From Balneolales bacterium (GTDB lineage: Bacteria; Bacteroidota; Rhodothermia; Balneolales; Natronogracilivirgulaceae): DNA of 45,154 nt. A program made the translations under genes and the position numbers. The notes under the pieces were generated by a model. The model did not search any database and had not been told where the DNA came from. It was given only the letters and a program-made list of their open reading frames with translations. This document shows positions 1 to 36,999 of this stretch, in pieces (position 1 is the stretch's first letter; each line of letters opens with the position of its first letter). The stretch covers positions 1 to 45,154 of the forward strand of contig SKWQ01000091.1 of assembly GCA_007128855.1 (NCBI GenBank), read 5' to 3'.

Positions 1-863
1 CGACTGTCGTCGATGGTGATGAGCATGTTGTAGGCCTCCAGGCGCCGCTCCGTGTCGGCATCCATGAAAACGGCCCTGAATTCACGGTGTTTGGCGGAAA
101 AGAGCAGGTCGAAGGGGTATCGAGCGGTGGTGCGGCGCTGGGACTGGTGGATCATCTGGAATGCCTCAAGGATGTTGTCGCGCGACTGGTCAGGATTCTG
201 GGTGAACAGGTCGAGCCCATGCCGGTGGTACCGGTACAGTGCTTTGCGAAAATCCGCGTAATCGGGGTTGAGCAGCTGTGTGATCAGATCGCTCCGGCTG
301 CGGCGGGAACCGGCTGTGGTCCATCCGGCACCTGAAGTTTCGCCCATGTCGGCAATGCGACGGGCATTCCGGAAAAACTCTTCCCCACCCAGCTCGGAAA
401 AAGTGTCGTAATCATATCCCAGGATGAGATTCGCATAAAAATCAAGCACGGAGGCAAGGGGATCGTACTGATAGGCATCGAAGAGCAGATTGTGGTTGGG
501 GCCGAAATCGAATACCCAATTGTTGTCGGTGATGATGAGCACCGGAGTGATCTGCAACGTGTTGTAAATAGGCCGTTCCGAAGACAACAGCATGGTGGTG
601 GTGAACAGCCGGTCGTCGACCGAATTGATGACGACCTGGATGTTGATCCGTATCCGTTCCATCTCCCCAAAGCGGTCGTCGGTCCAGCTGTTGGTCTCCA
701 GGTACTCCTTGATCATGGGTCCCAGCTGGTTGAGATACTCGTAGTCGGTGGTGCTGATCTGGGCCGTATTGATGTCCACCGAGACATCGAAAATCTGGGC
801 GGCTTCGGCCTTCCGTGGCAGGATCAGGATGAAAAGCAACAGAATGGCGATAAAAAAGCGCAT
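1..863 (-). CDS. DUF4835 family protein (type IX secretion-associated PorD-like), 3' end outside the window
   Basis: Manual translation from ATG at 863 (-): MRFFIAILLLFILILPRKAEAAQIFDVSVDINTAQISTTDYEYLNQLGPMIKEYLETNSWTDDRFGEMERIRINIQVVINSVDDRLFTTTMLLSSERPIYNTLQITPVL... VLDFYANLILGYDYDTFSELGGEEFFRNARRIADMG... DFRKALYRYHRHGLDLF. Signal peptide and DUF4835 pattern. Absent from the ORF track because it has no stop in the window. Confidence 0.8.
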   Translation of the reverse strand, partial: MRFFIAILLLFILILPRKAEAAQIFDVSVDINTAQISTTDYEYLNQLGPMIKEYLETNSWTDDRFGEMERIRINIQVVINSVDDRLFTTTMLLSSERPIYNTLQITPVLIITDNNWVFDFGPNHNLLFDAYQYDPLASVLDFYANLILGYDYDTFSELGGEEFFRNARRIADMGETSGAGWTTAGSRRSRSDLITQLLNPDYADFRKALYRYHRHGLDLFTQNPDQSRDNILEAFQMIHQSQRRTTARYPFDLLFSAKHREFRAVFMDADTERRLEAYNMLITIDDS

Positions 864-1025
864 GGATTGTCGTCGGTTTGTGAGGTCAGCTGAAAGGATT
901 CGCGTTTTCAGTGGTCTGAAAGATGTCGGGCGATGATCGCCATCCTTCCGGGTGGATGGAATGGCGACATCTGCTGAATATAACGCCTGTTTCCGGCAAT
1001 TTCGCATATAAAAATCATCCGGGAG

Positions 1026-1964
1026 ATGCTGTTCAAGTCAATGATCGGACCTCGATGCAGATACGGCACACCGTTGTGTCTCAATGGCACCATATGGATT
1101 GCCAAATCGGCAAGTATAATACGTGCTTATTCAGCAAATGCAACACGTGGATTGATTGTCCTGATTGCGATTTGCTCCATGGCTGTGCCGGCAGCGGCAC
1201 AGTGGACCATGGGGGCCCGCTCCATTGCCATGGGACAGGCACACACCGCGCTTCCGGGTGATTCGTGGGCTGTCTTCCACAATCCGGCAGCCCTTCCGAC
1301 TGACCGACTGGTTCTTGGCTTCTTTTCCATTCGCTATTATGGTCTCAGTGAACTGGAGGACCATGCAGCGGCGCTCTCGTTGCCCGGACCCGGTTTCCTG
1401 CAGACGGAAAACCGGAAGGTCGCTTTCGGGACCGGCATCCATACCTATGGATTCGACCTCTACCGTGAAACGCGCGCCAGAGTAGCAGCATCCATCAGCT
1501 TTGAACATTTCAGGATCGGTCTGAATGCCAGCTATGTCCATGTCCGGATCCAGGATTACGGTTCCCGGGGGTTACCGGTATTTGATGCCGGTATCATCAC
1601 TGATCTGTCGGAGTCGTTCCGGATCGGATACCGGATCTCACATCTTCTGGATCCCGTCTCTGACGGGCTTGCTGCCGATCTGCATCCCGCTGAAATGGCT
1701 GGCGGATTTTCGTGGGATGGTATCAGCGGCCTGCTGGTGACGGCCGACCTGGTCAAGGACAGCCTTCATCCGGTTTCCCTGCGATCGGGTGTGGAAGCTG
1801 CGTTGCCCGGCAGGTTCTTCCTCCGGGGTGGATGGACCTCGCGGCCTTTCACATGGTCTGCCGGAACCGGCCTTCATCTTGGCAGTTTTCAGGGGAACCT
1901 GGCTGTTCAGAAGCACGAAATACTCGGGTTGAGTCCCGGATTCGACTTTCAATTAACCTTCTGA
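1026..1964 (+). CDS. PorV/PorQ-like (UPF0164-like) outer-membrane beta-barrel protein; true start probably downstream of 1026
   Basis: Mature part 'AQWTMGARSIAMGQAHTALPGDSWAVFHNPAAL' is typical of PorV/UPF0164 proteins; signal-peptide-like 'GLIVLIAICSMAVPAAAQ' lies inside the ORF, so the N-terminal ~40 aa may be non-coding. Confidence 0.65.
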   Translation: MLFKSMIGPRCRYGTPLCLNGTIWIAKSASIIRAYSANATRGLIVLIAICSMAVPAAAQWTMGARSIAMGQAHTALPGDSWAVFHNPAALPTDRLVLGFFSIRYYGLSELEDHAAALSLPGPGFLQTENRKVAFGTGIHTYGFDLYRETRARVAASISFEHFRIGLNASYVHVRIQDYGSRGLPVFDAGIITDLSESFRIGYRISHLLDPVSDGLAADLHPAEMAGGFSWDGISGLLVTADLVKDSLHPVSLRSGVEAALPGRFFLRGGWTSRPFTWSAGTGLHLGSFQGNLAVQKHEILGLSPGFDFQLTF

Positions 1965-1976
1965 ATTCCTGTCACA

Positions 1977-4175
1977 ATGGCTCGCTCACAAGCTTCGGAT
2001 TGGTTCGTTAGTCGCACTGCAAAAATAAGTGGCACGGCTGGTCCGCCACTGAAGGTGCCCGGGTTGCTCCTGATGGCTTTGTTGCATGCGTTGTTTCTGT
2101 GTTTGACACTGTTACTGTCGGCTGACACAGCTCACTCCGGCATTCACTTTGGCGCCGATGGTCGGGATCGCGCAGAACTGGTGCAGCATTTCAGTCATGC
2201 CATAGATCCGGAGGATTTTGAAAGCATGGAGGACTGGGAGGCGTATGTCCAGGAGCTCATGGATCTTTTCCCGGTCAACATCAACTCGGCATCGGAACAT
2301 GAACTGCTTCTCATTCCGGGCATGACCCGCCGGTTGGCGGATGCCATTATCACGTACCGAAAGGACCGGCGTTTTTCCAGTATTGACGACCTTTCCAACG
2401 TTCCCGGTATCGGACCGGTCACCACCGAAATGCTCAGGCCCTGGGTTTCGGCCGGCTCGCAGCGGCGCAGACATCGTGGTTGGGCAAAAGGGATTGGAGC
2501 CCAGCAGTTTTTCCGGTTCCAGCAATCTTTCCCTGCGGCAAGTGGTTATTATGGATCAGATGGCCAACCGGCTCACTTCGCAGGGTCACCTGCCAGGCTC
2601 TATCACAGGCAAACCGTTTCGACAACGGGCATTTCGGCGAACCTGACCCAGGTCAAGCTCCCGGGAGAACCATACAATCCGCCATATGGGTTTGATTTCA
2701 CATCGGCGCATCTCGCATACCAGGGTAGTGGCATGTTCCGGCGGATAGTAATCGGCGACTACAGTGCGCGCTTTGGACAGGGCCTGGTGCTCTGGAGCAA
2801 TGCCTCGTTCGGCAAGGGTGGTCCGGCCCATACCGCACCCTTCAAACGTTCCCAGGGCGTCACACCGTACCGCTCGTCCGGACAAACACGTTTTTTCCGT
2901 GGAGCAGCAGCTGAAGCATCGGTACCGTTGCCCCGCTATCTCAGGCAAACCGGCTCAGAGCTTATCCTCTCGGCGATGCGCTCATCCCGTTACCGATCCG
3001 CTGTCGAGGTTGAAGGCGACACGATCCGACCTCCGTCCGGCAATCCCTACCACCGCACCGAATCGGAGCTGGCCCGCAAAAACAACGTCCGGGAGATCGT
3101 CCATGGAGCCAATATCTCATGGAGCCATCCGAACTGGAAACTGGGAATCACCCGGGTTTCGTACCGTCTGGACCGGCCGGTTCTTCCTCACCCCAACTCA
3201 TCTCCTTTCAATGGAGCGAAACATCAGGCATCAGGGTTGGATGGTTTGCTTCGTATTGGCCCCATCCGGATTTTCGGTGAATTGGCCCGGATCACAAACC
3301 GTTCACTGGTATCGGGACCGCATGGAGCCGGTGATGACAAAACCGCTCTATCAGCCGGGATCATGGCTGCTTATCCCGACGGCGCCGAGTGGGCCCTTGC
3401 TGTCCGGGACTACGGGCCGGGTTACTGGTCCGAATATGGCAATGGCTTCGGGGAGGGAGCCGGTGTGCCAACAAATCAGTCAGGATGGTACCTCGGCTTC
3501 CGCCTGAGGCCCGCTGCCCGCCTCCATCTCTCCGGTTTCCTGGACAGATTCCGGTTTCCGGAACCAACGCGGGGAAATATCTGGCCCGGACGCGGGTGGG
3601 AAGCCAACCTTCAAGTCCAGTATCGGCAGCGGACGGGTCTGCAGCATCAATTCGGTGTACGCTACAAGGAGAGGTCGACGGAGCGGGAGATACTCGATGA
3701 TTTTCACCGAAGAACACGTATACCCGGCTCAACGGGAAGGCTGACCGGACGCTATCAGATAAACTGGCAGGTCCACCAGAAACTCTTTCTGCGCTCACGT
3801 ATTGAGGCTGTCATGTCCGCACTTTCCGGCAACAGTGACAGCCACGGAATCGCCTTCAGCAAGTCTGTCCGCTGGCAGCAGACCCGAAAGCTTCGGGTCG
3901 ATTTGGGCTGGTCCTTGTTCGAAACAGATGATTTCAGCGCACGGCTTTACCAGTACGAATACGATCTGGCACAGGTCATGACGTCACGGATGCTGCATGG
4001 TCTGGGTCGCAGCTCCTACACCGTTATCCGATTCCAACCCCTTAACTGGCTGCTGGCGGAAATGAAATATGCCCGTATCCGGTACTTTGACCGGCCGGCC
4101 GTTGGGTCCGGCCATGACCAGACGCCGGGCCCGGTCCGTTCGGAACTGGGCCTGCAGATCCGGCTCTCCTATTGA
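1977..4175 (+). CDS. Helix-hairpin-helix (ComEA-like) domain protein with large C-terminal predicted outer-membrane beta-barrel
   Basis: 'VNINSASEHELLLIPGMTRRLADAIITYRKDRRFSSIDDLSNVPGIGPVTTEMLRPWV' is a tandem HhH/ComEA motif; the remaining ~550 aa is rich in alternating aromatic/charged strands ending '...SELGLQIRLSY', a barrel-like C-terminus. Confidence 0.75.
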   Translation: MARSQASDWFVSRTAKISGTAGPPLKVPGLLLMALLHALFLCLTLLLSADTAHSGIHFGADGRDRAELVQHFSHAIDPEDFESMEDWEAYVQELMDLFPVNINSASEHELLLIPGMTRRLADAIITYRKDRRFSSIDDLSNVPGIGPVTTEMLRPWVSAGSQRRRHRGWAKGIGAQQFFRFQQSFPAASGYYGSDGQPAHFAGSPARLYHRQTVSTTGISANLTQVKLPGEPYNPPYGFDFTSAHLAYQGSGMFRRIVIGDYSARFGQGLVLWSNASFGKGGPAHTAPFKRSQGVTPYRSSGQTRFFRGAAAEASVPLPRYLRQTGSELILSAMRSSRYRSAVEVEGDTIRPPSGNPYHRTESELARKNNVREIVHGANISWSHPNWKLGITRVSYRLDRPVLPHPNSSPFNGAKHQASGLDGLLRIGPIRIFGELARITNRSLVSGPHGAGDDKTALSAGIMAAYPDGAEWALAVRDYGPGYWSEYGNGFGEGAGVPTNQSGWYLGFRLRPAARLHLSGFLDRFRFPEPTRGNIWPGRGWEANLQVQYRQRTGLQHQFGVRYKERSTEREILDDFHRRTRIPGSTGRLTGRYQINWQVHQKLFLRSRIEAVMSALSGNSDSHGIAFSKSVRWQQTRKLRVDLGWSLFETDDFSARLYQYEYDLAQVMTSRMLHGLGRSSYTVIRFQPLNWLLAEMKYARIRYFDRPAVGSGHDQTPGPVRSELGLQIRLSY

Positions 4176-4654
4176 CGATCATCAAATGAAAAAAACAGGA
4201 TGGAGAAGGACGCGGCAAGCACAAGATAGTGTTGCATAAGAGGAACAAGGTGCAGCAGATATCCGGTGGTAAAGCCCGAAACCACTGCTGCTAGAAATGC
4301 GACGATGAAAGCACCAAAGTGGAGAACGAGCAGCAAGAGTAAATAACGTTTGCCTGCCGATAACAGCAGCATGAGCATCAGAAAGGCAAAAAAGACACTG
4401 CCCGCCGGGATGCCAAGAACGACCACCAAACCGGCATCGGCTGACTGGAGCATTGCTCCGGTTCCGGTATCATCCGGCACCACGTGAATGGTTCCATTGC
4501 TGATGTACAGAAACTCCAGGAATGGAACAAGCACATGCTGATTGATCAGTACCCGGACCGGCCGGATCATGAAAAAATATGCCGGGACGATGGCCATAGC
4601 GAGGACAGGATAGTACCAGCGATAGCGTTGTTTAACGGCATCAATCTTGCTCAT
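4169..4654 (-). CDS. Multi-pass membrane protein, probable exosortase-associated partner
   Basis: 161 aa with several predicted TM helices; directly follows the exosortase gene on the same strand. Confidence 0.55.
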   Translation of the reverse strand: MSKIDAVKQRYRWYYPVLAMAIVPAYFFMIRPVRVLINQHVLVPFLEFLYISNGTIHVVPDDTGTGAMLQSADAGLVVVLGIPAGSVFFAFLMLMLLLSAGKRYLLLLLVLHFGAFIVAFLAAVVSGFTTGYLLHLVPLMQHYLVLAASFSILFFSFDDRQ

Positions 4655-4685
4655 GGCAACACCAGGTTATAGCGCATCTGCAAAG

Positions 4686-5219
4686 TCATTCCGATCCTGA
4701 AGCATCAATCAGTTTTCCGTTGCCCCGAAGGGCCCAGACAATCCAAAGTGCAAATACGACCACGTAAAAAACCAGGTTGAATGTAAAGTCATGAATGGTA
4801 TGAAAGCCGGGGTACCAATGATACTGTATGATTGCCAGCAGGTAGATGCGGAAAACGTTGGTCAGATAGATTATGAGGATTCCCGCAGGGATGAAGAACC
4901 ACCGTTTGACGCTGTCTCCGGGATAGGCGATCACGAAACCGACAAACAGTCCGATGGTCTCAATACCATTGCATCCGTCTATGATTTCAAGTCCGTTTGC
5001 CAGCCCGATCCCGACGATACGGTCGAAAGCAAAGACGTCATAGCCGCTCAGCTGGAGCAACGCGGCCGTGACAGACACGATATTCCTGGAAACAAGTTGA
5101 TCCAACCTGCCATCAGGCAGGAGCCAAAGATGGTACAGTGCGTACCAGACCGCATAAACCACCAGTGCCTTGGTGATAAAAAGCACAATTTCCCGGAATT
5201 TCCCCTTAGATCCACTCAT
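4686..5219 (-). CDS. Exosortase/archaeosortase family protein (XrtF-like)
   Basis: Multi-TM protein with 'IDGCNGIETIGLFVGFVIAYPG' (Cys), 'IIYLTNVFRIYLLAI' (Arg) and 'HTIHDFTFNLVFYVVVFALWIVW' (His), the ordered catalytic signature of exosortases. Confidence 0.8.
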   Translation of the reverse strand: MSGSKGKFREIVLFITKALVVYAVWYALYHLWLLPDGRLDQLVSRNIVSVTAALLQLSGYDVFAFDRIVGIGLANGLEIIDGCNGIETIGLFVGFVIAYPGDSVKRWFFIPAGILIIYLTNVFRIYLLAIIQYHWYPGFHTIHDFTFNLVFYVVVFALWIVWALRGNGKLIDASGSE

Positions 5220-5267
5220 GGATGTACCTGGACCTGCGTGTTAGTTGTTTTAAAAAAAAATACATCC

Positions 5268-5777
5268 TCACTCCTCTCTCGCTGTGATCTTTTCGATGTA
5301 GGCGGCCGGGACTTCCACCAGGATCACCTGGCTGAGCTGTTCCAACTCAAGGCAGACTCGTTTTTTACCCCTCCAGTTGATCCACCTCCCCGTACTGTCT
5401 TTCAAAGGACCATGAGTCACTTTGACCTGGTCTCCCTTTGCAAAACTTCTCTCCCTGACATCGAAGGCATCCGGTCCGATCAGTATTTTCCGTATCAACT
5501 CGATCTGTTCGTCACGGATGACTGCCGGCGCCCCGTTGAAATGCACCGTACGCGCCACCCCGTCGGTCTGCACGGCGTGGTACAGATCCTGCAGTTTCGC
5601 ACGGATAAACACATAACTGTTGAAAAGCGGGACCTCCACCTTTTTCTTGCGGTCGCTCCATTGCCTGACTACCGTCTGCATGGGCAGCCATGCATCAAAG
5701 CCAGCTGCCTGCAGTCGCTCGACAACCTTTTTTTCAAACCTCGGCCGGGTGTACAGTGCGTACCAATGTAGACTCAT
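5268..5777 (-). CDS. NusG-like transcription antitermination factor (UpxY/LoaP type)
   Basis: 'MSLHWYALYTRPRFEKKVVERLQAAGFDAWLPMQTVVRQWSDRKKKVEVPLFNSYVFIRA... FAKGDQVKVTHGPLKDSTG': NGN plus KOW domains. Start moved from the ORF track value (5951) to the ATG at 5777. Confidence 0.85.
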   Translation of the reverse strand: MSLHWYALYTRPRFEKKVVERLQAAGFDAWLPMQTVVRQWSDRKKKVEVPLFNSYVFIRAKLQDLYHAVQTDGVARTVHFNGAPAVIRDEQIELIRKILIGPDAFDVRERSFAKGDQVKVTHGPLKDSTGRWINWRGKKRVCLELEQLSQVILVEVPAAYIEKITAREE

Positions 5778-5865
5778 GATCTCTGCTATGATATGTTGAT
5801 TCAGGCAATAGGTCCACTCCATGTCAGACGATTCACCTGATAGCAATAATATCACAAGTTGACTG

Positions 5866-5873
5866 CAAAGATA
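5866..5873 (-). promoter_or_regulatory. Possible Bacteroidota sigma-A -7 box (TATCTTTG) upstream of the antiterminator gene
   Basis: CAAAGATA on + = TATCTTTG on -, exact match to TAnnTTTG; no convincing -33 box at N19. Confidence 0.3.
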
Positions 5874-8135: not shown

Positions 8136-10154
8136 GTGTTTCGTAACGGAGACCGGGAAACCGGCTACATCAAAACCGCCTTTCACCCCTGGGGTGCAAA
8201 GCAGGAGCAGCGCAGTTGCACTTTCCGCCTGTATTGCCCCAGAGCAGCGCGGATTGAACTCGTGCTGTTCGACAGTTACCGGCAGCTGAAGGGACAGCAT
8301 CACCCCATGGACCGGCTGCCTGATGGCAGCTGGATGCTGGAACTGCCGGGCGACCACACCGGCAAATACTATGGGTACAGGGTGGAACATCCCTCAGACG
8401 AGCCCGGACTGCTGAAACCTCCACCGCTGCTTGCCGACCCCTGGTCCACCCAGGTCACCGCAGTAAATCACTATCAGCAGCTTCCCAAAAGCCGGATATC
8501 CGGTGCGGACACGTTTGACTGGCAGGGCGACACCTTTGTGATCCCTCCCGAGCAACGCGACCTGATCATCTACGAGGTGCATGTCAAAGACCTCACCGCC
8601 CACCCCTCTTCCGGCGCCACACAACCGGGCACCTACACCGGTTTCGTGGAAAAGAACATCACAGGTGGCATCGCCCATTTGAAACGTCTGGGTGTGAATG
8701 CCGTGGAACTACTTCCACTACAGAAATTCGCCGGCTTCGAACCTCCTTTCGAGCAGGAAACACCGGAAGGTTTTCGCAACACCTGGAACCCCTACAGCCG
8801 GAATTACTGGGGATATATGACCAGCTTTTTCCTGGCACCGGAGACCATGTACGCATCCAACGGAAGCAACCGGGCCGGTGTGTTCACCGGCGATCCGCTC
8901 ACCGCTGCACGCGAGCTGAAACACATGATCCGCGAGCTGCACCGCGAGGGCATTGCCGTGATCATGGATGTGGTCTACAACCACGCCTCCCAATACGACC
9001 AGAATCCGTTGCTCTACCTGGACCGCAAGGAGTTCTTCCGCACCGATGAGCACGGACATCCCACCAACCACAGCGGTTGCGGCAACGACCTGCGCACCGA
9101 ATCGCCGCACATACGGGAACTGATCATCTCATCGGTAAAATGGTGGATGCAGGAGTACCACATCGACGGTTTCCGCTTTGACCTGGCGAATCTCATTGAC
9201 CGTCAGACCATTGCCGAGATACGCGGGGAAGCGCAGAAAATTAATCCAAACGTGCTGCTCATTGCCGAGCCGTGGGGTGGCGGCTATGACCCTACCGGCT
9301 TCTCCAGACACGGATGGAGCGCCTGGAACGATCAGATACGCAATGGTGTGAAGGGCATCGACCCCATCCACACTCCCGGTTTCATTTTTGGGAAATGGCA
9401 CTATGAGACAAACCGCGAATCACTGGAGAACTACATCCGCGGAACCCTGCTGCCAGAATCCAATGGCCGGTTCCACCATCAGGAACACGCTCTGAACTAC
9501 CTGGAATCACACGACGGTTATACCCTTGGCGATTTCATCCGCATTGCCCTCGATCACGGGAAAAAAGATGCCGTTTATAAAGGCAAAACTCCACTGATTG
9601 CGCTGAACGAGCAGGAGATGAAATGCGCCCGTCTTGCCGCGCTGTTCCTGCTGACCGCCCAGGGGATTCCCATGATCCACTCCGGACAGGAGTGGGGCCG
9701 GGCAAAATGGATCGTCCCGGAAAACCCGCGCGATCCGAATACCGGGAAGCTGGACCACAACAGTTATGAGAAGGACAATGCCACCAATTACCTGGATTTT
9801 TCGGAAATCGAGGCTAATTCCGGGCTCTTTGATTATTATCGCAACCTGATCCGGCTGCGTATGGAGAATCCCCAGCTTCGCCTGGCCGAGCCGCAAGAGA
9901 TCCGTTTCCAGCCGTTCCAGGATGCCTTGCACATCACGTTCGAGATTCACAGTCAGCACCAGCCCGGACAGCGGATGTTGGTAAGCCTCAACGGCAATCC
10001 TGACAACGAATACCACGTGAGTCTTCCCGAGGGACGCTGGGAGCAGATTGCCGATGCAGCCGAAATCTACCCCGACCATCCCCGTCCCGTTCACGGACCC
10101 GAAATCCCGGTACCCCCGACATCCGGCATCATACTCCGCCAGCTGCTGTCCTGA
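8136..10154 (+). CDS. GH13 glycogen-debranching enzyme / isoamylase-pullulanase family (CBM48)
   Basis: GTG start. 'VMDVVYNHAS', 'DGFRFDLANLID', 'LLIAEPWGGGYDPTGF', 'NYLESHDGYTLGDF' GH13 motifs plus N-terminal CBM48-like domain. Confidence 0.9.
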   Translation: MFRNGDRETGYIKTAFHPWGAKQEQRSCTFRLYCPRAARIELVLFDSYRQLKGQHHPMDRLPDGSWMLELPGDHTGKYYGYRVEHPSDEPGLLKPPPLLADPWSTQVTAVNHYQQLPKSRISGADTFDWQGDTFVIPPEQRDLIIYEVHVKDLTAHPSSGATQPGTYTGFVEKNITGGIAHLKRLGVNAVELLPLQKFAGFEPPFEQETPEGFRNTWNPYSRNYWGYMTSFFLAPETMYASNGSNRAGVFTGDPLTAARELKHMIRELHREGIAVIMDVVYNHASQYDQNPLLYLDRKEFFRTDEHGHPTNHSGCGNDLRTESPHIRELIISSVKWWMQEYHIDGFRFDLANLIDRQTIAEIRGEAQKINPNVLLIAEPWGGGYDPTGFSRHGWSAWNDQIRNGVKGIDPIHTPGFIFGKWHYETNRESLENYIRGTLLPESNGRFHHQEHALNYLESHDGYTLGDFIRIALDHGKKDAVYKGKTPLIALNEQEMKCARLAALFLLTAQGIPMIHSGQEWGRAKWIVPENPRDPNTGKLDHNSYEKDNATNYLDFSEIEANSGLFDYYRNLIRLRMENPQLRLAEPQEIRFQPFQDALHITFEIHSQHQPGQRMLVSLNGNPDNEYHVSLPEGRWEQIADAAEIYPDHPRPVHGPEIPVPPTSGIILRQLLS

Positions 10155-13076: not shown

Positions 13077-14429
13077 ATGTTTGATAAAATACTTATCGCA
13101 AACCGGGGCGAAATCGCGTTGCGCGTCATCCGGACCTGCCGGGAAATGGGAATCAAGACGGTTGCCGTCTATTCCACGGCGGACGAAAAAAGCCTGCACG
13201 TGAAATTCGCTGATGAAGCCGTTTGTATCGGTCCGCCTGCCGCCCGGGACAGCTACCTCAAGATCCCGCGCATCATCGCCGCCGCAGAGATCACCGATGC
13301 CAAGGCCATCCATCCCGGCTACGGTTTTCTTGCAGAGAACGCCGAATTTTCCCGTATCTGCGAAGAGCACAACATCAAGTTCATCGGTCCCTCCCCGAAG
13401 ATGATCGACACCATGGGCAACAAATCCATGGCCCGGGAGAACATCATGAAATTCGGCGTGCCGACCATTCCCGGAAGCCCGAGCGTCATACGATCAGCCG
13501 ATCAGGCAAAAAAGATCGCTGCGGATATCGGCTATCCCGTCATCTTCAAGGCCTCGGCAGGCGGGGGCGGACGCGGAATGCGGATCGTCATGGAGGAAAA
13601 GGAAATTGAGCGCCAGCTCATTGCTGCCCGCAACGAAGCCGTATCCTGTTTCGGCAATGGCGAGATCTATATGGAGAAATTCATTGTGGAGCCGCGCCAT
13701 GTCGAGATCCAGATCGTCGGCGACCGGCACGGGCTGGTAAACCACTACGGCGAGCGTGACTGCTCCATGCAGCGACGATACCAGAAGATGGTGGAAGAGG
13801 CTCCATGCCCTGTCATGACGCCCCAGCTCCGGGAGAAAATGGGACAGGCCGCCATTGCCGCCGCCGAATCCGTCCAATACGAAGGCGCCGGCACGATCGA
13901 GTTCCTGCTCGACAAAGACCACAACTTCTATTTCATGGAGATGAATACGCGGATCCAGGTGGAACATCCTGTCACCGAGGAAGTAACAAACGAAGACCTC
14001 ATCAAGCGCCAGATCGAGGTTGCTGCCGGACTTCCGCTGGACAAAAAACCCCTGAAAATACGCGGACACTGCATAGAGTGCCGGATCAATGCCGAGGATC
14101 CGGAGTTCAACTTCCGTCCCTCCGCCGGCAAGATCCAGACGTTCAACCTGCCGGGCGGGCACAGTGTCCGGGTGGATACGCACGCCTACGCCGGGTATAC
14201 CGTCCCGCCCTATTACGATTCGATGATCGCCAAGCTCATTGTCAGTGCACCGGACCGCAGGCAGGCCATCGAACGCATGAAACGTTCCCTCAGCGAATTT
14301 GTAATTGAGGGAATCAAAACCAATATTCCCTATCAGATGCAGCTGATGAACGATCCGGGTTTCATCAGCGGGCATTTCGACACCAAATACCTTGAAAATC
14401 ATTTCAAGTTTCAACCCGATCCCTCCTAA
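13077..14429 (+). CDS. accC: Acetyl-CoA carboxylase, biotin carboxylase subunit
   Basis: '[33 protein letters not shown]', '[14 protein letters not shown]', '[18 protein letters not shown]'; follows accB. Confidence 0.96.
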
Positions 14430-34712: not shown

Positions 34713-36296
34713 CTAGCGGCGGTTTTTACGGCGCGACCACCAATCGGAATCTGACCGGCCGCTTGCCGGATCCTTGCTTTGGTCCTGAAGACCGGTTGCG
34801 TGGCGGTCCGGAAACCCGGTTCCTGCTGCGGCCGCATCCACCCCGGCTTGTCCGACTGCCGGTGACATGCTGTTACCGCCATGGTTATCGCCATGGTGCA
34901 GCATTCCGGCTATGATCGATACCGGATGGGAGAGGGATGTTTCCACCAGCTCCTCCCCGGAAAAGTGTTCCGGAATAAAATGGGTGTCATACCGGCCCTC
35001 CCGGAACGCCGCGTGACCCATCACATACCGGCAAAACGGGATGGTTGTGGGAAAACCGGTGATGATGGTATCATCCAGGGCGCGGGTCATGCGTGCTATG
35101 GCCTCGGAACGGTTACTGCCGTACACGATCAGTTTGGCGAGCAGCGGATCGTACTCCGTGGTGATCTGCTGTCCCGGACGGATGCCCTCATCCACACGCA
35201 CGTGCGCACCCGTTGGCGGTCGCCATTTTTTAATGGTTCCGGTAGCCGGGAGGAACTGTTCGATCGGGTTTTCGGCGCAGATCCGGCATTCAATGGCGTG
35301 GCCATTCCGCTGCAGTTCATGCTGTTTCCATGGCAACGGGTGGCCTTCGGCTACGCGTATCTGCAGCGCGACAAGATCCGTTCCCGTGGTCATTTCCGTT
35401 ACGGGGTGTTCCACCTGAAGGCGGGTATTCATTTCCAGAAAATAGAAATTGCGGTCGCGGTCCACCAGGAATTCGACCGTTCCTGCTCCCACGTATCCGC
35501 AGGAACCGGCAGCGCGCAGCGCCGCTTCTCCCATTTCCTGTCGCAGCGCTTCATCCAGGAACGGGCTGGGCGACTCTTCGATGAGTTTCTGATGACGTCG
35601 CTGGATGGAGCACTCGCGGTCGAACAGGTGCACCATGTTGCCATGACGGTCGGCGAATATCTGGAATTCCACATGGCGCGGCTCCTGCAGATATTTTTCC
35701 AGGTAGACGCGGTCGTCGCCGAAAGCGCCGCCGGCTTCCGAGCGGGCGGATGAGAGGGCCCCCGGGAGCTCGCCAGCGGTTCGCACCAGGCGCATGCCCT
35801 TACCGCCGCCGCCGGCAGCTGCCTTCACCAGCACCGGATAGCCGATGTCACCGGCCACCTGTTGTGCCTCCTCATCCGAAGCGATGGCCGACCGGGTCCC
35901 CGGCGGGATGGGCACCCCGGCTTTTTCCATAAGTTCGCGTGCCTGCGTCTTGTCCCCCATCTGCCGGATGGCATGCGGACCGGGTCCGATGAATAAGATC
36001 TGCTCCCGGGCACACGCCTCGGCAAAATCGGCGTTTTCGCTCAGGAAGCCGTACCCGGGATGGATCGCATCCGCCTGGCGCTCCCTGGCTGCCTGCAGGA
36101 TCCGGTCGGAGTTCAGATAGGTGTCACTTGCCGATTTCCCCTCAAGCAGCACCACCTCATCGGCATTGAGGGAATGCGGACTGTGCCTGTCCGATTCCGA
36201 ACAGACCGCAACGGTCCGTACCCCAAGCTCCCTGCAGGTACGGATGACCCGAAGGGCTATTTCACCGCGGTTGGCGATGAGGATTTTACGGAACAT
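34713..36296 (-). CDS. Second biotin carboxylase (acyl-CoA carboxylase alpha-type) without a BCCP domain
   Basis: '[53 protein letters not shown]', 'KAAAGGGGKGMRLV', '[18 protein letters not shown]'; C-terminal tail lacks an AMKM/EAMKM motif. Start set to ATG 36296. Confidence 0.9.
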   Translation of the reverse strand: MFRKILIANRGEIALRVIRTCRELGVRTVAVCSESDRHSPHSLNADEVVLLEGKSASDTYLNSDRILQAARERQADAIHPGYGFLSENADFAEACAREQILFIGPGPHAIRQMGDKTQARELMEKAGVPIPPGTRSAIASDEEAQQVAGDIGYPVLVKAAAGGGGKGMRLVRTAGELPGALSSARSEAGGAFGDDRVYLEKYLQEPRHVEFQIFADRHGNMVHLFDRECSIQRRHQKLIEESPSPFLDEALRQEMGEAALRAAGSCGYVGAGTVEFLVDRDRNFYFLEMNTRLQVEHPVTEMTTGTDLVALQIRVAEGHPLPWKQHELQRNGHAIECRICAENPIEQFLPATGTIKKWRPPTGAHVRVDEGIRPGQQITTEYDPLLAKLIVYGSNRSEAIARMTRALDDTIITGFPTTIPFCRYVMGHAAFREGRYDTHFIPEHFSGEELVETSLSHPVSIIAGMLHHGDNHGGNSMSPAVGQAGVDAAAAGTGFPDRHATGLQDQSKDPASGRSDSDWWSRRKNRR

Positions 36297-36999
36297 GTCG
36301 CTGCAGTATATCCCCGCGGATCTCCCAGGGATCGTCTCCGGTTTCGATCCAGTAATCAAAAATGTGCTCAACCGCCTTTGACCTTAGGATATCGCTGAGC
36401 ATGTAGTTCATATCGAGGTTGGGATCGTCGGGCGTAACGACAAGGCGGATGTCCGTGCTTTTGATGTCATCGAGCAGGGTCGGGTCGTCAAGATTGGGAA
36501 GATACTCGAGCGGATTGTTGTAGTAGACGTTGTCATCGAAATAGTCATCCATGTAAGCACGTATCTGGAACACCCCTCCGATGGAGATGGCCTTCTGGAT
36601 CTGTCCCGGATGCTTGAGCAACAGGTTGACGGCATGATACCCACCCAAACCAACGCCCGCCGCCATGACAAACAGGTCGTTCGTGGTTTTCCTGATGAAC
36701 GGCAGCACCTCATCGATTATGAAGTTATCAAACTGCCGGTGCCGGCTGATCCGGAGTCGGGGCGGGGCGCCGGTGTTCAAAAAACTCTCCCGATCATTGG
36801 AGTCAACACAGAATATGCGATTATGTCCGTTTTTCAATTGAAAATCGAGGGCTTTTATCAATCCGTGGTCCTCCCATTCGGTCCGGGTCCGGCCCTCGTC
36901 CGGAAATACGAGGAGCGGTGTGCCCTCGGTACCGTATATCGAGATGGTTGTTTTTGTTCCCAGGCTGGGACTTTGCCAGCTATGACTCTTTTTTTCCAT
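36286..36999 (-). CDS. Esterase-family alpha/beta-hydrolase-fold protein, apparently lacking catalytic residues
   Basis: 'FDNFIIDEVLPFIRKTTNDLFVMAAGVGLGGYHAVNLLLKHPGQIQKAISIGGVFQIRAYMDDYFDDNVYYNNPLEYLPNL' resembles the esterase-D-like family (GCSMGGYHA...); start set to ATG 36999. Confidence 0.7.
   Translation of the reverse strand: MEKKSHSWQSPSLGTKTTISIYGTEGTPLLVFPDEGRTRTEWEDHGLIKALDFQLKNGHNRIFCVDSNDRESFLNTGAPPRLRISRHRQFDNFIIDEVLPFIRKTTNDLFVMAAGVGLGGYHAVNLLLKHPGQIQKAISIGGVFQIRAYMDDYFDDNVYYNNPLEYLPNLDDPTLLDDIKSTDIRLVVTPDDPNLDMNYMLSDILRSKAVEHIFDYWIETGDDPWEIRGDILQRHVP

Follow-up and report, generated by a model that had tools for sequence, protein, structure and literature searches.

The three-gene module described here is on balance best explained as a stand-alone sorting operon of the XrtX type, led by an UpxY antiterminator, whose substrates are probably PID-CTERM-like micro-proteins encoded behind genes for cargo of the type IX secretion system (T9SS). 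Our analysis narrows the candidate exosortase substrates to micro-proteins of ~70 residues that are positionally tied to T9SS cargo. This position points to a connection between two protein-export systems that has not been described before and, if true, would form a bridge between exosortases and type IX secretion through which both could be tested directly.

The operon and its conservation

The module lies in a window of 45,154 nucleotides (the whole stretch of DNA analysed) from an uncultured member of the Balneolales, whose assembly comprises 2.65 Mb in 287 contigs and is 88.75% complete. The features of the module are as follows:

4169..4654, minus strand: small multi-TM partner, 161 aa, without family match, kept 3' of xrt in the genus
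4686..5219, minus strand: XrtX-like exosortase, 177 aa, with Cys83, Arg124, and His143 at the motif columns; PF09721 and TIGR04178 above cut-off
5268..5777, minus strand: UpxY-family NusG paralog (antiterminator), 169 aa from ATG; matches NF033644
5847..5869, minus strand: conserved leader element TTTGCAGTCAACTTGTGATATTA, 5' of upxY, once per module
5866..5873, minus strand: TATCTTTG, candidate Bacteroidota-type -7 promoter box by its sequence, overlapping the leader element

All three genes are on the same strand, as the first-pass annotation had described, and they are flanked, again as described, by metG and by a gene for a ComEA-like HhH plus barrel-like protein (Pfam). A Pfam scan of the window's other main ORFs returned housekeeping and envelope genes and confirmed that no glycosyltransferase is among them, nor is any polysaccharide-export gene; the carbohydrate gene nearest to the module encodes an alpha-amylase-type enzyme (8136-10154). 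One EPS export locus was detected in the genome (Poly_export, Wzz, Wzy, and two glycosyltransferases), on a different contig (C196) that has no link to the module in the assembly. Two kilobases from the module, at window positions 3-1964, are a DUF4835 gene (PF16119), which we take to represent a PorD-like T9SS family, and a weak PorV/PorQ-like gene; the position of the PorV-like gene is kept in several congeners.

The 177-aa protein had been called an exosortase from its Cys, Arg, and His signature, and HMM searches bear this out. Two superfamily models were exceeded, PF09721 (50.1 bits; cut-off, 25.7) and TIGR04178 (66.7 bits; cut-off, 23), and Cys83, Arg124, and His143 occupied invariant or nearly invariant columns when 22 homologs were aligned. 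The nearest named subfamily was XrtX (NF046081), for which the score of 167.1 bits was just under the cut-off of 170, and the score against XrtF (88.8 bits) was likewise below its cut-off of 90. Four of seven congeneric exosortases passed the XrtX model (172.8 to 176.6 bits) and three fell short (163.2 to 165.2 bits); XrtX proteins tested from other families of the order scored 177 to 206 bits. Due to the subthreshold score and the congeners straddling the cut-off, we refer to the enzyme as XrtX-like rather than as a certified XrtX. The exosortase had no sequence match in the PDB, and an AlphaFold2 model from five sequences was of low confidence (mean pLDDT, 65.7), with six helices and no significant PDB fold match. 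In one congener (G002; L083:1489-2013 and L005), the exosortase reads IIDGSNGIE, with Ser at the position of the catalytic Cys and the gene otherwise intact; the Ser is either a real change or an assembly error.

UpxY and the exosortase were found between metG and the HhH-barrel gene in seven congeneric genomes, amounting to eight copies, with some congener contigs ending inside the module region. Across these copies, identity to the window's proteins was 76 to 83% for UpxY and 65 to 79% for the exosortase. The named relatives with 73 to 79% exosortase identity are Balneolales MAGs of series CSSed162cm, presumably from soda-lake sediment. In both upxY and xrt, non-synonymous change was far below near-saturated synonymous change, which indicates purifying selection. 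Together with the gene order kept in seven relatives, this selection argues that the module is no stray EPS fragment. Judged from these genomes, the stand-alone arrangement that had been noted in the single window is a stable feature of the genus and not a single broken locus. In one of these genomes (G001; L033 and L034), the whole module occurs twice in diverged copies within an assembly with 4% contamination, reflecting either a duplication or two strains.

None of the ten genomes sampled from the family's other genera had the exosortase, but a majority of the genomes in four further families of the order did. Absences are weak evidence here because many relatives are incomplete MAGs; their genes were taken from simple ORF calls. 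In those families, nucleotide-sugar, aminotransferase, or polysaccharide-export genes are near the exosortase at L049 and L051. EPS genes beside the exosortase in related genomes, which the first-pass annotation had set as the sign of a rearranged fragment, do occur in some other families but not in this genus, so that such a fragment does not fit the module.

The 161-aa protein had no Pfam or NCBIfam match. Five more copies of the module in the genus include it, and its gene evolves faster than upxY and xrt; only a remnant is left in G003, and none was detected in G004. In families f2 and f3, xrtX can be followed on its 3' side by diverged, weakly similar small membrane proteins. Homology of the 161-aa protein to TIGR04127 is not supported, given no NCBIfam match and a profile comparison with one Flavobacterium member that gave an E value of 0.056 and a probability of 1%.

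The UpxY antiterminator and its leader element

The NusG paralog was correctly recognized as UpxY type, scoring 152.6 bits against NF033644 (cut-off, 100), and UpxY proteins above this cut-off occurred once per module in the genus genomes examined. Here the genes behind upxY encode the exosortase and the 161-aa membrane protein, and upxY heads no polysaccharide operon. The operon is a compact example of a specialized antiterminator away from polysaccharide genes, and its leader element is defined. This element, a conserved block of 23 bp in the region toward metG (TTTGCNNTCAACTTGTGATATTA), overlaps TATCTTTG. The Bacteroidota -7 promoter type is TAnnTTTG, and TATCTTTG resembles such a box. With up to three mismatches allowed, the leader element was detected once per module and at no other place in 21 genomes.

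UpxY proteins are reported to block early termination in the leader that precedes their own gene (PMC7819879) and to activate the operon in which they reside (PMC7593976). The first-pass annotation had left two options, that the antiterminator serves its own operon or that it acts in trans. Each module has a single UpxY, and the leader element occurs only with the module, so that action on its own operon is the favored predicted function; the leader block could equally be a promoter or an operator. In one congener (G005; L182:6047-6809), upxY is intact and constrained, and xrt, the partner gene, and the leader element are gone by an apparent deletion. Retention of upxY without xrt leaves room for a second UpxY role and speaks against pure self-regulation.

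Candidate substrates and type IX secretion cargo

The first-pass annotation had predicted that a dedicated substrate, bearing a C-terminal signal of its own, is encoded elsewhere in the genome. We identified candidates in five congeners but none in the module's own assembly. PID_CTERM (NF046080) had no match above cut-off in the genus and only chance matches in the module's own genome. The weakest matches in the genus pointed to ORFs of ~70 aa, and a profile built from three of them detected five genus proteins (in G001, G006, G007, G008, and G009) with E values of 1e-32 to 1e-40, three of the five being those that built the profile. The G008 genome contained a divergent second micro-protein (E value, 6e-7), and the profile also reached PID-CTERM micro-proteins of family f5 (E value, 1.4e-8). 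The genus micro-proteins consist of a signal peptide, AQ(I/L)PPPELPGAPDQS, and then PLWG, PIWG, VLWG, or PVSCG; they close with a TM helix and a basic tail. Against PID_CTERM they scored at most 15.5 bits, below the cut-off of 26, compared with 47.8 bits for a control from the order. We regard the genus signal as a divergent PID-CTERM derivative without the PID motif. Order-wide, the predicted signal-peptidase site (A before Q) and the motif are separated by 11 to 16 residues in most cases, with some longer spacings due to the regular expression starting too early; a peptide of this length would be the mature product.

In the module's own genome, no micro-protein was found by protein, profile, or degenerate-DNA search or by a scan around its 36 T9SS tails that used loosened criteria and included positive controls. 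The ortholog of the cargo encoded upstream of the substrate was also absent among these 36 tails. Since both are missing, an assembly gap and a true loss cannot be distinguished, and either is a possible cause of the missing substrate.

XrtX and PID-CTERM proteins tend to occur together. Among genomes outside the genus, 31 contained both above cut-off, 2 contained XrtX only, 4 contained PID_CTERM only, and 13 contained neither (Fisher p, 5.7e-7, a value that shared descent inflates). Within the genus, G006 encodes a micro-protein without a detected exosortase. Most of the genomes with a PID-type protein and no exosortase, namely G006 and the four with PID_CTERM only, are incomplete.

Directly upstream of the genus micro-protein genes is a gene whose large product carries a T9SS sorting tail (PF18962). 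An assignment of this upstream gene as a histidine kinase was ruled out, as Pfam identifies T9SS cargo. With a profile built from the T9SS tails of the module's own genome, a tail was found on the same-strand ORF just upstream at all five main micro-protein loci of the genus, at 25 of 30 PID loci in relatives, and at 23 of 26 further loci in the order (48/56 for the latter two sets), figures that we give as counts without a p-value, loci of one genome or genus not being independent. With the same profile, no tail was found downstream of PID loci or on the opposite strand in the order. Outside the order, an upstream tail was present at 9 of 24 PID loci, and three more upstream ORFs appeared tail-like by eye. 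Based on the 36 tail matches among ~2,400 genes in the module's own genome, we estimate that chance would place a tail at about one or two per hundred genes. In two genomes of another family, outside the order (L212, L213), the PID-CTERM gene is behind a polyprenyl synthetase-like ORF, judged by eye, and not behind T9SS cargo. We found no description of an XrtX/PID-CTERM pairing with T9SS in the open-access papers searched, nor any of PID-CTERM.

Proposed mechanism, alternatives, and known systems

In the mechanism that we propose, UpxY most likely engages RNA polymerase at the leader of its own operon (5847-5869), which would then be read through upxY and xrt into the gene for the partner. 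Both the exosortase and its small partner would reside in the inner membrane. The substrates would be the ~70-aa micro-proteins encoded elsewhere, with a Sec signal peptide followed immediately by a Pro-rich stretch of 13 to 16 residues and ending in the putative divergent PID-CTERM signal of P-[LIV]-[WS]-[GC], a TM helix, and a basic tail. With the signal peptide removed before the Gln, Cys83, aided by Arg124 and His143, would cut near the motif, and a peptide of ~14 residues would be released or transferred to some envelope acceptor. Because micro-protein genes are directly behind cargo genes, this peptide probably acts on the cell surface together with the neighboring T9SS cargo, for example by anchoring it. 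The genes, their conservation, the leader element, the micro-proteins, the co-occurrence, and the adjacency to T9SS cargo genes are seen in the sequence; regulation, cleavage, the acceptor, and the role are inferred. More tentatively, and with a little less than even confidence, we suggest that XrtX and PID-CTERM constitute a T9SS-tied branch of micro-protein maturation in which each micro-protein amounts to two sorting signals flanking a Pro-rich peptide and the ~14-residue peptide helps to export, modify, or anchor the cargo; this genus would use a divergent form, lacking the PID motif, with a stand-alone UpxY-led operon. Counting against our preferred explanation of the module are its own genome without a found substrate, the scores of the genus micro-proteins below the PID_CTERM cut-off, the genomes with a PID-type protein and no XrtX, the retention of UpxY without xrt in G005, and the loss or reduction of the partner in two congeners.

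Alternatively, UpxY may act in trans on the distant EPS locus on C196 and the exosortase may attach proteins to the polysaccharide of that locus, with the module as an outpost of the EPS system. UpxY proteins typically serve capsule operons, the EPS locus is indeed present on another contig, xrtX or UpxY is found beside polysaccharide genes in families f3 and f5, and G005 retains an intact UpxY without xrt. We nevertheless consider this arrangement fairly unlikely, given that the leader element was found at no other genome site and that each of the eight other copies has UpxY immediately 5' of xrt. The positional tie of the micro-proteins to T9SS cargo and not to xrt, along with genomes that have XrtX or a PID-type protein without the other, could also mean that the micro-proteins escape processing and serve as small membrane helpers of T9SS cargo, with XrtX acting on something else. 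The co-occurrence of XrtX and PID-CTERM and the mostly incomplete MAGs among the exceptions weigh against such helpers, as does the sequence of motif, TM helix, and basic end, which is the known layout of exosortase signals (PEP-CTERM, PMC7468200), and we find it unlikely that XrtX leaves them uncut.

Decay of a former EPS-linked exosortase system would account for the lack of a found substrate in the module's own genome, the loss of xrt and the partner in G005, the reduced partner in G003, and the replacement of the catalytic Cys by Ser in G002. A relic of this kind is difficult to reconcile with purifying selection on upxY and xrt, whose synonymous sites are near saturation, with catalytic residues that are intact in this module and in the majority of congeners, and with the conserved position and leader, and we regard it as improbable.

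The closest known counterpart is XrtX (NF046081) with PID-CTERM (NF046080), which shares with our system a short exosortase of the same clade, the same substrate build, and co-occurrence in the Balneolales. In contrast to that pair, the module's exosortase is just below the cut-off, the genus signals are without the PID motif, and the operon is UpxY led and away from EPS genes. Like the XrtF (TIGR04128)/TIGR04127 pair of Flavobacterium, the module places a small multi-TM protein after a short exosortase, and neither has polysaccharide genes among the surrounding ORFs seen (L085 for Flavobacterium). Unlike that pair, the module scores below the XrtF cut-off, homology of its partner to TIGR04127 is unsupported, and it includes UpxY, which was not seen in the Flavobacterium stretch viewed (L085). 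In Flavobacterium johnsoniae, the XrtF and TIGR04127 genes are both needed for surface colonization, and the study that first tied an exosortase to this process leaves the substrates to future work (PMC10936215).

The UpxY proteins of Bacteroides capsule operons are likewise NF033644 members encoded by the first gene of an operon behind a conserved leader, but the genes that follow upxY here are those for the exosortase and its small membrane partner, with no glycosyltransferase and no upxZ seen. The Cys-Arg-His membrane enzyme and the tripartite C-terminal signals resemble those of the PEP-CTERM/EpsH (XrtA) system, from which the module differs in its short enzyme (28.5 bits against EpsH; cut-off, 105.55) and in its candidate substrates, which are not secreted proteins linked to EPS but micro-proteins encoded next to T9SS cargo. 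Elsewhere in the window, we observed two biotin carboxylase genes (13077-14429 and 34713-36371), with a biotin-carrier gene adjoining only the first.
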